From an uncultured Nitrosomonadales bacterium (GTDB lineage: Bacteria > Pseudomonadota > Gammaproteobacteria > Burkholderiales > Gallionellaceae): a DNA stretch of 38,606 nucleotides. Shown here piece by piece: positions 7,859 to 24,407 of the stretch. The notes beneath the pieces are model-generated. The model did no database searches, was not told the origin of the DNA, and was given only the letters and a program-made list of their open reading frames with translations. Numbering within the stretch: position 1 is the first letter of the stretch; the number at the start of each line of letters is the position of its first letter. Location of the stretch: NCBI GenBank assembly GCA_903915035.1, contig CAIWRI010000032.1:1-38606 (forward strand), given 5' to 3'. The translations under genes were made by a program, and so were the position numbers.

Positions 7859-9055
7859 TTATTGCTTGGCACGTTCTTCCAGAATCGCAACAGCCGGCAA
7901 TGTTTTGCCTTCGAGGAATTCAAGGAATGCACCGCCAGCTGTTGAAATATAGGACACCTTGTCAAAAATTCCATACTTCTGAATCGCGGCAATCGTGTCA
8001 CCACCGCCTGCCAGTGTGAAGGCTTTTGTTTGTGCAATCGCATTGGCAATCGCACGGGTTCCTTCACCGAACTGATCGTATTCAAATACACCTACAGGTC
8101 CGTTCCAGACTACAGTGCCCGCATTCATGATGATGTCGACGATTTTCTGAGCGGACTTGGGGCCAATATCGAAAATCATTTCGTCATCAGTAACGTCGCT
8201 GGCATCTTTCAGAATGGCAGGGATATTTTCATTGCCAGGCAGGAAAGGTGCTGCGGTACCCACCACGACATCAGAGGCAATGGGAATACTAGCACCCCTT
8301 TGTTTCATTTTTTCGATCAAGGCTTGTGCGGTTGCCAACAGATCATTTTCACACAGCGATTTACCGACCGGATGTCCGGTGGCTTTCAAAAAAGTATTGG
8401 CAATGCCGCCGCCGACCACCAGTTGCTCGCATTTTTCTGACAAGGATTCCAGTACCGTCAGTTTAGTCGATACTTTTGAGCCGCCGACAATGGCGACCAT
8501 AGGGCGTGCCGGATTAAGCAGGGCTTTGCTTAAGGCTTCCAGTTCATTCGTTAGCAAAATACCGGCAGCGGCAACAGAGGCAAACTTTGCCACGCCATGA
8601 GTTGAGGCTTCAGCGCGGTGAGCCGTACCAAATGCATCCATGACGAAGATATCGCATAAAGCGGCATATTTCTTGGCCAGGTCATCGGTACTTTTTTTCT
8701 CGCCCTTGTTGAAGCGGCAGTTTTCCAGCAAGACCAGTTCGCCCTCTTGAACGTCAAACCCGCCATTGATCCAGTCGCGAATTAAACGCACCGGTTTGCC
8801 CAGTTTGTTGGCGATGACATCGGCAACAGGTTTCAGCGAATTTTCTTCGGAATATTCGCCTTCAACGGGACGACCCAAATGAGACGTAACCATCACGCGC
8901 GCACCCGCCTTGATCGCGGCATTGATGGTTGACATGGAGGCGGTGATGCGGGCATCGGAGGTGACTTTGCCGTCTTTGACGGGAACATTTAAATCTGAGC
9001 GGATCAGGACGCGTTTGCCCTTGAGATCCAGATCGGTCATTTTAATTACGGACAT
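7859..9055 (-). CDS. pgk: Phosphoglycerate kinase
   Basis: A 398-residue two-domain cytoplasmic enzyme that interconverts 1,3-bisphosphoglycerate and 3-phosphoglycerate with ATP. Visible motifs are [12 protein letters not shown] (N-domain substrate loop), [19 protein letters not shown], the [13 protein letters not shown] hinge, NGPVGVFE and the C-terminal nucleotide loop GGGDTIAAI. The length is normal. GGAG precedes the ATG by 6 nt. The 126-bp gap to the upstream gap gene holds a heptamer repeat and a long stem-loop, so pgk may be expressed or processed separately from gap. Confidence 0.96.
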
Positions 9056-9074
9056 TTTCTACTCCAAAAATGGC

Positions 9075-9130
9075 AAGTGGCAAGTGGCAAGTGGTAAGTG
9101 GTAAGTGGCGAGTAGTAAGTGGAGAGTGGC
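9075..9130. repeat. Heptamer tandem repeat, eight units (consensus AAGTGGC)
   Basis: Eight consecutive 7-bp units are visible: AAGTGGC twice, AAGTGGT twice, AAGTGGC, GAGTAGT, AAGTGGA and GAGTGGC. The array lies in the gap-pgk spacer and stops about 20 bp before the pgk start. The unit is not a multiple of three, but the array is not in a coding frame. Heptamer arrays of this kind (STRR) are known from cyanobacterial intergenic DNA. Confidence 0.85.
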
Positions 9131-9180
9131 TAGCGGAAACCCCGCTAAACCCACTCGCGACTCACTACTTTCCACTAACT
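9100..9180 (-). other. Long imperfect stem-loop between gap and pgk
   Basis: The outer four-and-a-half heptamers (9100-9130) face a run of complementary heptamers (9150-9180), pairing at about 24 of 31 positions. The top is a perfect 6-bp GC-rich hairpin, TAGCGG (9131-9136) with CCGCTA (9142-9147). In the minus-strand message it starts directly after the gap stop. It could protect the gap 3' end, act as a processing site or partly terminate transcription. There is no T-run, so a classical terminator is unlikely. Confidence 0.6.
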
Positions 9181-9181
9181 A

Positions 9182-10192
<1,011 letters not shown>

Positions 10193-10280: not shown

Positions 10281-12296
10281 TTATAGAACGCTCTCAACTG
10301 CCTTGATGACGTTTGCGACGGTAAAGCCAAAGTGCTTGAACAATTCCGGTGCAGGTGCAGATTCACCAAAGCTGTCCATACCTACCACGGCACCTTCCAG
10401 TCCTACATATTTATACCAGCCTCCGGTTACGCCGGCTTCTACCGCGACGCGATTGATACCGCGCGGCAATACGCTGTCCTTATACGCCTGATCCTGCTTG
10501 TCAAACACATTGGTCGAAGGCATGGAAACTACGCGCACGTTGATGCCTTCCTGTGCCAATGCGGCTTGAGTCTTAAGCGCTAGATCAACTTCAGAACCTG
10601 TTGCGATAATCACGGCATGCGGTGTGCCCCCTGCTGCTTCAGACAGGATATAAGCCCCCTTGCGGATGTTGGCGATTTGTTCCGCATCGCGCTTCTGGAA
10701 CTGCAGGTTCTGTCGACTGAAGATCAAACTTGACGGGCCGTCGTTGCGCTCAACTGCGGCAACCCAGCACACAATGGATTCCACGGTGTCACAGGGACGC
10801 CATGTTTCCATGTTCGGAATATGGCGCAAGGTTGCCGTTTGTTCAACTGGTTGGTGAGTCGGACCATCTTCGCCCAGGCCGATTGAGTCATGAGTGTAAA
10901 CAAAAATCACGCGTTGTTTCATCAATGCGGCCATGCGCAGGGCATTGCGGGCATATTCAGAGAACATCAGGAAGGTGCCGCCGAAAGGAAGTAAACCGCC
11001 ATGCAGAGCCATGCCGTTCATGATATGCGACATGCCGAATTCACGCACGCCGTAGCTGATGTAATTGCCGGTTTTCTTGCCGTGCACATGTTTGCAGCCT
11101 GTCCAGTTGGTCAGATTTGAACCCGTCAGATCGGCAGAGCCACCCAGGAATTCAGGCAGTGCCGGAGCTAAGGCGTTAATGGCATTTTGAGAAGCCTTGC
11201 GGGTAGCAATGGTTTCGGCTTTTTCATTGATCTGCGCAATGGCTTTTGCGGCATGTTCCGCCCAGCCTGCAGGCAACTCGTTTCTGGTACGGCGCGTGAA
11301 TTCTGCGGCTTCGGCAGGGTAGGCTGCGCTATATTCAGCAAAGTTGTTGTCCCACAGTTTTTCCAGCCCTGCACCTTTAATGCGGGCATCCCAGGCGTCA
11401 TAAACATGCGGGGGGATTTCAAATGGAGGATAGTTCCAGCCGATATGCGCACGTGTTGCTGCAACTTCAGCATCGCCCAGCGCCGCGCCATGCACATCGT
11501 GCGTGCCTTCCTTGTTGGGAGAGCCTGCTCCGATGATGGTTTTGCAGCAAATCAACGTCGGCTTGTCGGTAACCAAGTGGCCTGCACGAATGGCGTCGTC
11601 GATAGCTTCAGGATCATGTCCCTGCACATTGGCCACTACATGCCAGCCGTACGCTTCAAAGCGTTTTGTGGTGTCATCGGTGAACCAGCCATTGGTGTGA
11701 CCGTCAATGGAGATTTCATTGTCATCCCAGAATGCGGTCAGCTTGCCCAGACCCCAGGTCCCGGCCAGCGCACAGGCTTCGTGGGAAATCCCTTCCATCA
11801 TGCAGCCATCGCCCATGAACACGTAGGTGTTATGTGAGACGATTTCATGGCCGGGTTTATTGAACTCTGCGGCCAGTAATTTTTCAGCCATTGCCATACC
11901 AACGGCATTGGTGATGCCCTGACCTAACGGGCCGCCGGTGGTTTCCACGCCGGGGGTGTAGCCGTATTCGGGATGACCGGGCGTCTTGGAATTCATCTGG
12001 CGAAAGCGTTTAATTTCGTCCATAGGCAAATCATAACCGGACAGATGCAGTAATGCATAGATCAGCATGGAGCCATGTCCGTTTGACATCATAAAACGGT
12101 CACGGCCTGGCCACTTCGGATTGGCCGGATTGTGGCGCAGATGACGATTCCATAATACCTCTGCGATTTCAGCCATGCCCATCGGAGCACCCGGATGGCC
12201 GGAATTGGCTTTTTGCACAGCATCCACCGCCAGCATGCGGATCGCGCCAGTGATGTCATTATATTTTGGTTGGGTAATGCTGCGAACTGCTGTCAT
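10281..12296 (-). CDS. tkt: Transketolase
   Basis: A 671-residue cytoplasmic, thiamine-diphosphate-dependent enzyme that moves two-carbon units between ketoses and aldoses in the Calvin and pentose-phosphate cycles. Visible sites are [38 protein letters not shown], and the TPP/Mg motif [13 protein letters not shown] (from about residue 162) ending at N193 in FWDDNEIS. The pyrimidine-domain segments [18 protein letters not shown] and FSRQNLQF follow, then the C-terminal domain. The full expected length is present. GGAGGAG lies 8 nt before ATG. It is the first gene of the carbon operon; its leader holds a hairpin (12315-12329) and a heptamer array directly after a consensus -35 box. Confidence 0.96.
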
Positions 12297-12339: not shown

Positions 12340-12379
12340 TAATGCCTAATGCCTAATGCCTAATGCCTAATGCTGTCAA
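12340..12379 (-). repeat. Heptamer tandem repeat (TAATGCC) beside a consensus -35 box upstream of tkt
   Basis: Four exact TAATGCC units (12340-12367) are followed by a fifth, TAATGCT (12368-12374). On the minus strand the array is GCATTAG x4 plus GCATTAA. It starts directly after TTGACA (12379-12374), a perfect sigma-70 -35 hexamer facing tkt. No good -10 box occurs at 16-18 bp, because that space is filled by repeats. CATAAA (12337-12332) lies beyond them, about 36 bp from TTGACA. Copy number would therefore alter promoter spacing if this -35 is used. Confidence 0.8.
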
Positions 12380-21767: not shown

Positions 21768-24407
21768 ATGGCAATCAATCTTCTTATCGTCGAATCCCCG
21801 GCCAAGGCCAAAACGCTCAAAAAATATCTGGGCAATGATTATGAAGTACTTGCCTCTTACGGGCATGTGCGCGATCTCGTGCCGAAAACAGGTGCGGTAG
21901 ATACCGAAAACGGTTTCGCGATGAACTATGAGCTCATCGCGCGCAACAGCAAACACATGGATGCGATTGCCAAGGCGGCGGCATCCGCAGAAAATATCCT
22001 GCTCGCACCCGATCCCGACCGCGAAGGAGAAGCGATTGCCTGGCATATCGCCGAACTGCTAAAAGCCAAGAGAGGTTTTAAGGGCAAAAACATGAAGCGC
22101 GTGGTTTTCTATGAAATCACGCAGTCAGCGGTCAGAGAAGCGGTTGCCAACCCGCGCGAAATTGCCATGCCGCTGGTCAATGCACAACAGGCACGCCGCG
22201 CGCTGGATTATCTGGTGGGTTTCAATTTGTCACCGTTGCTGTGGCGCAAGATACGTCCCGGTTTGTCGGCAGGTCGTGTGCAGAGCCCGGCTTTGCGGCT
22301 GATCGTCGAACGAGAATTACAAATCGAGGCCTTCAATAGTCAGGAATACTGGACGGTGCATCTGGACAGTCACAAGGATCACCAGCCGTTCTCAGCACGC
22401 CTGATTCAGTATCAGGGCAAAAAGCTCGAACAGCTCTCCATCGCCAATCAAGCCGAATATGAGGCGATTTTTGACAAGTTAAGTCACGCAAAATTACTAC
22501 CCAAGGTAGTGCGTGTCGAAAAGAAGGCCAAACAGCGTTATGCCGCAGCACCGTTCACCACGTCGACCTTGCAACAGGAAGCCGTACGTAAACTGGGGAT
22601 GTCCGCCGAACGCACCATGCGCACCGCGCAATCGTTGTATGAAGGGGTGGATGTTGGCGGTCAGACCATCGGACTGATTTCCTATATGCGTACCGATTCG
22701 GTGACGCTCGCGAAAGAAGCGGTACAGGAAATCCGTGATTACATCAGTGATCATTTTTCAGCCGATTATTTACCGGGCGCGCCGCCTGCCTATAAGAGTA
22801 AAACCAAGAATGCGCAGGAGTCGCACGAAGCAATCAGGCCGACTTCAATCGCACGTACCCCTGACAGCTTGCGCGATCGCTTAACCGTCGATCAGGCCCG
22901 TCTGTATGAAATGATTTGGAAGCGCACACTCGCCTGTCAGATGACGCCGGCACGTTATGACACAGTCAGTGCCGATATCCGCTTAGGCGGCGACGATACA
23001 CTGTTTCGCGCGAATGGTCAGGTACTGGTATTTCCCGGATTTATCAGCGTTTACATGGAAGATGTGGATGACGCCGAAGAAGAGCAGGGCAGTCGTTTGC
23101 CACCGCTGGTGGAAGGCGATATATTGCCGGTAGACAAATTGTTTGGCGAGCAGCATTTTACCCAACCGCCACCGCGATTCACTGAAGCGAGTCTGGTCAA
23201 GTCGCTGGAAGAATATGGCATTGGCCGTCCTTCAACCTATGCCACCATCATTTCCACGCTGCAAACCCGTGAATATGCGATTCTGGATAAGAAGCGTTTT
23301 ATGCCTACCGATGTGGGGCGCGTGGTTACGCGCTTTCTCACTGATCATTTTACGCGTTATGTCGATTACAACTTTACCGCTTCGCTTGAAGACGAGTTGG
23401 ATGAAGTCTCGGATGGCAAGCGTGACTGGATAGGCGTGCTGGATGAATTCTGGAAGGGCTTTTCCGGGCTGATCAAGGAGAAGAAAGATATTGAGCGTCC
23501 ACAGGAATTGCTCGATGAAGCTTGTCCTGAGTGCGGCAAACCGCTGGCCAAAAAATTGAGCCGTTACGGCAGTTTCATCAGTTGCACCAATTACCCTGAA
23601 TGCAAATACAAGCGCAGCGTCGGCGGTGAGACGCAGGAAGAAGTGCGCGTCGAATTGGGTGTTTATCCGGAGACTCAGCAGGCTGTATTGTTGCTGCGCG
23701 GCCCCTACGGTCATTATGTGCAATTGGGTGAAGTCATCGAGGGTGAAAAGGCAAAACCCAAACGTGTTTCCTGGCCCAAGGAGATGTCTGTAGAGGGGGC
23801 CGATCTGGCCAGCGCACTGAAATTGCTGTCTCTGCCGAAGGATCTTGGTTTGCATCCTGAAACCGGCAAGAAGGTGATCGTCAATATTGGCAGGTTCGGC
23901 CCTTATATTGGTCATGACGCCAAGTTCAAGTCAATTCCGCGCACGGATAGTATTTTTGATGTTACGCTGACGCGTGCCGTCGAGTTGCTGGCGCAGACCA
24001 AGGACGGCAATACCGTATTGCGCACGCTGGGCGATCATCCTGTTGATAAAACCACGATTGAGATATGCAATGGCCGTTACGGCCCTTATGTGCGCCACGG
24101 CAAGATCAATGCGACTCTGCCCAAGGATATGTCGCTGGAAGAAGTCACGTTGGAACAGGCTCTGGAACTGATCGCCGCCAAGATCGCGAAGGGCGATACG
24201 GGTAAGAAGCCGGTAAGGAAGGCAGCGGCCAAGCCGAAAGCGGAAGCCAAGCCCAAGGCCGCGGCTAAACCCAAAGCTGAAGCCAAACCGAAAGCGGAAG
24301 CCAAACCCAAGGCCGCGGCGAAGGCTGAAACCAAGCCGAAAGCGGAAGCCAAACCGAAGGCTGCGGCCAAGCCCAAGGCCGCAGTTAAAGCAAGTAAGGC
24401 GGACTGA
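21768..24407 (+). CDS. topA: DNA topoisomerase I
   Basis: An 879-residue type IA enzyme relaxing negative supercoils. The Toprim domain has LLIVESPAKAKTLKKYLG (E9) and APDPDREGEAIAWH (D82, D84, E86). The active-site tyrosine is Y306 in GLISYMRTDS. RPGLSAGRVQSPALRLIVERE and YGIGRPSTYATII are typical. There is one four-Cys zinc ribbon (CPECGKPLAKK and SCTNYPECKYK), then two repeats of the type GPYGHYVQLG / GRFGPYIGHD / GRYGPYVRHG that lack cysteines. A Lys/Ala/Pro tail of about 70 residues ends the protein. Such tails occur in other betaproteobacterial TopA proteins and bind nucleic acid nonspecifically. It converges on yggS with 2 bp between the stops. Confidence 0.96.
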   Translation: MAINLLIVESPAKAKTLKKYLGNDYEVLASYGHVRDLVPKTGAVDTENGFAMNYELIARNSKHMDAIAKAAASAENILLAPDPDREGEAIAWHIAELLKAKRGFKGKNMKRVVFYEITQSAVREAVANPREIAMPLVNAQQARRALDYLVGFNLSPLLWRKIRPGLSAGRVQSPALRLIVERELQIEAFNSQEYWTVHLDSHKDHQPFSARLIQYQGKKLEQLSIANQAEYEAIFDKLSHAKLLPKVVRVEKKAKQRYAAAPFTTSTLQQEAVRKLGMSAERTMRTAQSLYEGVDVGGQTIGLISYMRTDSVTLAKEAVQEIRDYISDHFSADYLPGAPPAYKSKTKNAQESHEAIRPTSIARTPDSLRDRLTVDQARLYEMIWKRTLACQMTPARYDTVSADIRLGGDDTLFRANGQVLVFPGFISVYMEDVDDAEEEQGSRLPPLVEGDILPVDKLFGEQHFTQPPPRFTEASLVKSLEEYGIGRPSTYATIISTLQTREYAILDKKRFMPTDVGRVVTRFLTDHFTRYVDYNFTASLEDELDEVSDGKRDWIGVLDEFWKGFSGLIKEKKDIERPQELLDEACPECGKPLAKKLSRYGSFISCTNYPECKYKRSVGGETQEEVRVELGVYPETQQAVLLLRGPYGHYVQLGEVIEGEKAKPKRVSWPKEMSVEGADLASALKLLSLPKDLGLHPETGKKVIVNIGRFGPYIGHDAKFKSIPRTDSIFDVTLTRAVELLAQTKDGNTVLRTLGDHPVDKTTIEICNGRYGPYVRHGKINATLPKDMSLEEVTLEQALELIAAKIAKGDTGKKPVRKAAAKPKAEAKPKAAAKPKAEAKPKAEAKPKAAAKAETKPKAEAKPKAAAKPKAAVKASKAD
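24231..24386 (+). repeat. 18-bp coding repeats for the KPKAEA/KPKAAA tail of TopA
   Basis: Eight hexapeptides of the form KPKA[EA][AV] with one four-residue interruption (KAET) are encoded by near-identical 18-bp units. The unit length is a multiple of three, so copy-number change keeps the frame. The tail resembles histone H1-like bacterial basic tails. Confidence 0.85.

Follow-up and report, generated by a model that had tools for sequence, protein, structure and literature searches.

A degenerate-heptamer hairpin between gap and pgk in a Gallionella-type genome as a possible interchangeable 3' hairpin of the gap message

The spacer between gap and pgk, two genes of sugar metabolism, in a Gallionella-type, iron-oxidising bacterium contains an array of degenerate AGTRGNN heptamers that folds back on complementary heptamers. 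The array belongs to a dispersed family whose arms occur in one order and which lies next to stop codons; the family occupies orthologous spacers of related species and is replaced by other hairpins in further relatives. We consider the chances about even that this element is an interchangeable intercistronic 3' hairpin of the gap mRNA. From comparison of sequences we infer that the hairpin may affect the RNA or its expression. The window, that is, the whole stretch of DNA analysed, comprises 38,606 nucleotides and is contig G000:C32 of a genome of 3.16 Mb in 155 contigs.

Both genes are encoded on the minus strand, on which gap is transcribed first and pgk follows. The gap gene (type I glyceraldehyde-3-phosphate dehydrogenase, 332 aa, positions 9182-10180) was assigned from its ORF and sequence matches, the closest named match being a Gallionella metagenome assembly with 93% identity, and pgk (phosphoglycerate kinase, 398 aa, 7859-9055) from tblastn matches 3' of gap in relatives. 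The intergenic spacer on this strand has 126 bases (9056-9181), and the element occupies almost all of it. The minus-strand ORFs agree with the preliminary description, which had placed the element directly 3' of gap in the gap-pgk mRNA. The sequence of the same strand contains the pgk ribosome-binding region GGAGTAG at 9059-9065, which reads GGAGTAG or GGAGTAA in most Gallionella relatives of the AGTRG type, and a T5 run in mRNA sense at 9066-9070, after the last 3' unit.

Eight exact AGTRG cores are present on the plus strand at 9076-9129 with 7-nt spacing, starting at 9076, 9083, 9090, 9097, 9104, 9111, 9118 and 9125; in the mRNA they constitute the C-rich 3' arm, which reads CYACTNN. They are followed by a perfect apical 6-bp GC stem with a 5-nt loop (9131-9147; TAGCGG at 9131-9136 and CCGCTA at 9142-9147) and by a complementary arm of four degenerate units, also 7 nt apart, at 9151-9176 (CCACT, CGACT, CTACT and CCACT, with cores starting at 9151, 9158, 9165 and 9172). 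This check of the sequence found the eight heptamers, the GC hairpin and the complementary arm where they had been described. In the mRNA the short arm of four units is the 5' arm and begins some 5 nt past the stop codon of gap. The long arm, composed of the eight exact cores and a degenerate ninth unit, is the 3' arm, and about four of its units are left unpaired ahead of the pgk ribosome-binding site. The fold of 9050-9200 has an energy of -60.6 kcal/mol against a shuffle mean of -39.1 (z -5.7; 0 of 200 shuffles equalled it), and the fold on the minus strand, the true transcript strand, has -46.2 (z -4.3); the fold-back described earlier is therefore stronger than in shuffled sequences on both strands. 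The lag-7 self-match score was 36, whereas 20 dinucleotide shuffles of the whole window reached at most 13. An Rfam search with the element gave no family above the curated score and only sub-threshold microRNA-type matches. Pairing of the free 3' units with the ribosome-binding site GGAGTAG of pgk was also considered and was rejected, as it is not general among other arrays.

In the mechanism that we propose, each arm is a slippage-prone tandem with a fixed 5-letter core (AGTRG, or CYACT opposite) and two free letters. In the gap-pgk transcript, an RNA stem of about 31 pairs, starting at the 5-nt distance from gap given above, would block 3' exonucleases or cause partial termination or processing, and the outcome would be gap message above pgk message. 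It is plausible that the element sets different gap and pgk levels, as had been suggested in the preliminary description. The heptamer hairpin would be swappable with the terminator-like hairpins found in this spacer of sister species.

The gap-pgk spacer was compared in a set of 91 distinct spacers from diverse Proteobacteria. Significant short-period repetition was found in 26 of the 91, with a period of 7 or 14 in 22. The repeated words differ: AGTRGNN in Gallionella, GTAGCNN (L015, L103, L113), TCAGCNN (L016, L029), GGGACTA (L014), a TCAGG-type word (L021), GAATTNT (L026), a CAAG-type word (L025), GTGAAAN (L109) and GTRAGGN (L027, L106). With thresholds set within the analysis and relatives that are not mutually independent, a fold with z<-2 was found in 69/85 gap-pgk spacers versus 35/94 co-directional spacers elsewhere in the same loci, and strong period-7 arrays in 13/57 gap-pgk versus 6/136 other spacers (Fisher p 0.0003). 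Instead of heptamers, other Gallionella carry a compact GC hairpin with a T-run (L096, L097, L098, L100, L105) or, in two cases (L102 and L013), unrelated long inverted repeats. Heptamers and other hairpins were exchanged at least eight times on the gap gene tree, which is poorly resolved. L112 and L115 are close sisters on short branches; L115 bears heptamers, and L112 retains the tail of the C-rich arm together with a new compact stem and T6. Relatives thus also have a hairpin between gap and pgk, which agrees with the preliminary description, and the comparison suggests that at this site the hairpin shape is kept rather than the sequence. The near-constant presence of a hairpin in this spacer, its interchangeable sequence and its position right behind the stop codon of gap would be expected if such a 3' hairpin were useful, for example in keeping gap mRNA above pgk mRNA.

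The history of the two arms was studied in related loci. Eleven orthologous spacer groups across Gallionella species carry the hairpin between flanks of 72-95% identity, and the orthologous spacers differ in unit number and linkers. When 55 hairpins were pooled, with the register set without regard to the variable letters, no covariation between the arms was detected (R/Y core position, p 0.86; linkers, p 0.83). Covariation was weak in aligned gap-pgk hairpins, where the repeat phase of the alignment is ambiguous and the two-sided changes were matched by 6 of 500 shuffles. Since convincing covariation between the arms is absent, pairing appears to rest on the fixed core of each arm, and this absence weakens both selection on exact pairing and fresh inverted duplication. 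The element had been described as looking like a heptamer array duplicated in inverted orientation. The 55 hairpins do not support a recent duplication of this kind, as the variable letters of the two arms match no better than chance and their linkers are unrelated. As for conservation of pairing in relatives, the hairpin is kept at the site, but compensatory changes are at best weak.

Other members of the family were searched for in the genome of the window. A three-unit AGTRGNN pattern gave 302 matches, versus 34 for the backward-read pattern. The stretches around the pattern matches contain about 47 arrays, some 20 of them two-armed, so the further and often inverted arrays envisaged in the preliminary description do exist. 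About half of the arrays are one-armed, including the longest, which has 19 identical units and is located at a contig end (L178). Contigs C8 (right), C40 (left), C75 (left) and C144 (right) of this genome end in or very near heptamer arrays; assembly therefore probably breaks there, and array copy numbers are lower bounds.

The order of the arms is one-sided. In this genome, the two-armed pattern with the AGTRG arm first matched 27 times, at 13 places, and the reverse arrangement never; in 41 genomes of the genus there were 306 (overlapping) matches versus 0, and the backward control gave 0. Though few, the matches of GTAGCNN (11 versus 0) and of the 9-nt unit CACGAAGNN (4 versus 0) were one-sided in order as well. 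This polarity is independent of gene direction, because an inverted pair reads identically on either strand. The loci of other species were picked by the AGTRG-first pattern and therefore provide no independent evidence on polarity. When 400 kb of two relatives were scanned without bias, three new period-7 arrays were found, all in G083, along with arrays of 9- and 10-nt units in G021. Period 7 is thus not universal, since period-7 arrays were few in the scan and other periods were also found. In G021 (L251, L253, L254, L256), paired inverted arrays lie between genes with the purine-rich arm first; their units are 9 nt (CACGAAGNN, CACAGAGNN) or 10 nt (CACRGATNNN) long, and their architecture is that of AGTRGNN.

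Arrays are placed close to the ends of genes. Where the neighbouring genes are co-directional or convergent, the distance from stop codon to array is between -15 and +20 nt in 37 of 41 cases. The 55 two-armed sites include 31 co-directional, 5 convergent, 8 divergent and 8 inside a longest-ORF call; the last two classes are uncertain, since genes were called by guessing from the longest ORF. Which arm is longer showed no trend with the direction of transcription (10 versus 15). All 12 gap-pgk arrays of the AGTRG type are two-armed versus about 20 of 47 genome-wide, a comparison that was made post hoc on data already seen.

Several points stand against reading the element as a 3' hairpin: pooled arm covariation is lacking, one-armed arrays are common, 8 of the 55 two-armed sites are between divergent genes, and no U-tract directly follows the stem. 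It is possible, with a probability well short of even, that the element is a neutral or selfish simple-sequence repeat, in which slippage expands heptamers in non-coding DNA without effect and old inverted units give rise to the hairpin as a by-product. The absolute polarity of 306:0 is unexpected under such free drift, as are stop-codon adjacency, persistence at orthologous spacers, the enrichment of arrays and their two-armed form at gap-pgk, and the substitution of other hairpins for them, whereas the independent variation of the arms in the 55 hairpins and the existence of one-armed arrays, with as many as 19 identical units (L178), agree with it. Among longer repeats, heptamers are also the most frequent class in many bacteria, and slippage has been suggested as a mechanism (PMC4679880, PMC4692102). 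The neutral account covers the one-armed arrays and the absent covariation but leaves polarity, placement and recurrence unexplained. A DNA-level element, with paired opposite-strand sites to which a regulatory or nucleoid protein binds, has been proposed for paired tandem repeats of Geobacter metallireducens and appears improbable here. Unit number and inter-arm distance vary freely, unrelated cores fill the same spacer in other genera and no candidate protein is known, although a core with a free linker resembles a protein site, the orientation is strictly inverted, arrays also occur between divergent genes (8/55), and paired tandem octa- and heptanucleotide classes of Geobacter form a precedent (PMC2700814).

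The reading as a 3' hairpin of the gap mRNA also has a narrower form, which we regard as rather unlikely: a terminator or attenuator proper that would stop part of the transcripts after gap, either by the hairpin and a downstream T-run or by a Rho-dependent site on the C-rich, G-poor 3' arm. The purine-rich arm is first and the pyrimidine-rich arm last in 18 of 22 period-7 gap-pgk hairpins, like ordinary terminators, but a T-run of at least 4 is near the hairpin end in just 3 of these 22. T4-T6 runs after arrays are found in the relatives L092, L093, L107 and L114, and L112, the sister of heptamer-bearing L115, has collapsed to the compact stem with T6. In the window, about 31 nt lie between the best hairpin's base and the T5 run, and a terminator scan of 9056-9181 called none, with no GC stem directly followed by a U-run. 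A plain intrinsic terminator in the window was rejected on these two grounds, which also make stabilisation or processing a little likelier than plain intrinsic termination. Rho may act here, given the C-rich, G-poor composition of the unpaired 3' units.

We put forward a wider conjecture only tentatively. Bacteria may keep a general class of core-plus-free-linker hairpins, with units 7, 9 or 10 nt long, which arise in place at gene ends; the unit sequence would be free and lineage-specific and the orientation and stop adjacency fixed. These hairpins would be interchangeable transcript-end parts, and gap-pgk would have recruited unrelated families repeatedly. If this is true, one conserved spacer shows a hairpin kept while its sequence is replaced wholesale, with slippage-prone heptamers as the material, and a vague class of intergenic repeats becomes testable through gap-pgk hairpin swaps and the gap/pgk ratio.

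REP and BIME elements are palindromes of 20-40 nt with a GTAG/GGAG tetranucleotide and are mobilised by the RAYT transposase; the element here is a variable-length tandem, unlike REP. The GGGAATC repeats of Xanthomonas are tandems of degenerate heptamers with many convergent inverted pairs, mostly intergenic and near the stop of the upstream ORF; two species have 83% of the positions in common but vary in repeat length, and transcripts begin or end inside the repeats (PMC4692102). AGTRGNN resembles them in its degenerate tandem unit, its convergent inverted pairs (27:0, 306:0) and its proximity to stop codons (37/41). The Xanthomonas units contain G-triplets, form G-quadruplexes in vitro and are discussed as G-quadruplexes (PMC4692102). 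In contrast, at least four GGG tracts are present in only 4 of 55 AGTRGNN hairpins, and the array of the window has none. A three-quartet G-quadruplex was accordingly rejected as the driver of AGTRGNN polarity and placement, and strict polarity without G-triplets makes the G-quadruplex idea for the Xanthomonas repeats unnecessary for such an architecture.

Classes 1-4 of Geobacter metallireducens are short degenerate tandems (units GTTGCTYN, TCTCCGTSY and MTYCTGA) that are dispersed and paired on opposite strands with variable spacing, and the parts of PMC2700814 on these repeats interpret them as IHF/HU sites. They share dispersed opposite-strand tandem pairs with AGTRGNN and differ in their units; those parts of the source report no gap-pgk link. 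In the P6b stem of the Nostoc trnL intron, both arms are degenerate heptamers, and two unrelated motif classes, TDNGATT and NNTGAGT, replace each other at one site with the fold kept (PMC4476775). That stem is in a group I intron of tRNA-Leu, whereas the element here is between gap and pgk. TAACTGA of Beggiatoaceae is a dispersed intergenic direct repeat of 2-6 copies upstream of start codons and is almost never inverted (PMC4679880); the common trait is dispersed intergenic heptamers, but the unit here is AGTRGNN and both arms are present. The gap-pgk operon of Zymomonas mobilis has unequal gap and pgk expression via different transcripts (Eddy et al. 1989, as cited in PMC6544118); gap and pgk are in one operon there too, but the organism is different. 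What is new here is the same architecture without G-triplets, its exceptionless polarity in 41 genomes, and the reuse of one spacer by many unrelated heptamers.

In many other Nitrosomonadales, from several families, and in relatives of the order, a second hairpin, GTGAGGCGTAAGG...CCTTACACCTTAC, is found immediately upstream of pgk (L016:2281-2323; L029:2945-2987; L106:2587-2629; L235-L239). It is alignable and covarying, with 10 two-sided changes (0/500 shuffles), and is a candidate cis-regulatory RNA. A search of the genome of the window with a model of this hairpin gave no match. Strong matches were found in five genomes, including G038, which had supplied a sequence of the model, and each was in the gap-pgk spacer before pgk; the weaker matches inspected were GTGAGGC-type heptamer hairpins at other loci. 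This pgk leader hairpin may be of one kind with the heptamer hairpins, in a fixed version with two units.

Other sequences are found inside or near heptamer arrays. A GC-rich double-hairpin element of 60-odd bases (GTACCCGCAAGGGGCAGGCCGTGCGGTACCCGCAGCGAAAGCTGCGACCGCTACGCTC) is present inside AGTRGNN arrays at three places (L196:2969-3137; L198:1515-1604; L200:1512-1636) and resembles a small mobile or repeated element that targets these arrays. A shorter hairpin, AGCGGCACTTCGTGCCTC, and its variants occur between AGTGG units in several species and are common to orthologous sites (L204, L210, L214, L221, L224, L225, L227, L230, L231). Elsewhere in the window, a perfect one-armed (TAATGCC)x4.9 array at 12340-12373 is located upstream of a 671-aa ORF (10281-12296), taken as transketolase (tkt), and is followed by a short CCCATCCCGCTGGGATG hairpin ahead of the ribosome-binding site. 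Repeats with periods of 18, 36 and 48 at 24218-24376 encode the repetitive C-terminal tail of an 879-aa ORF (21768-24407).
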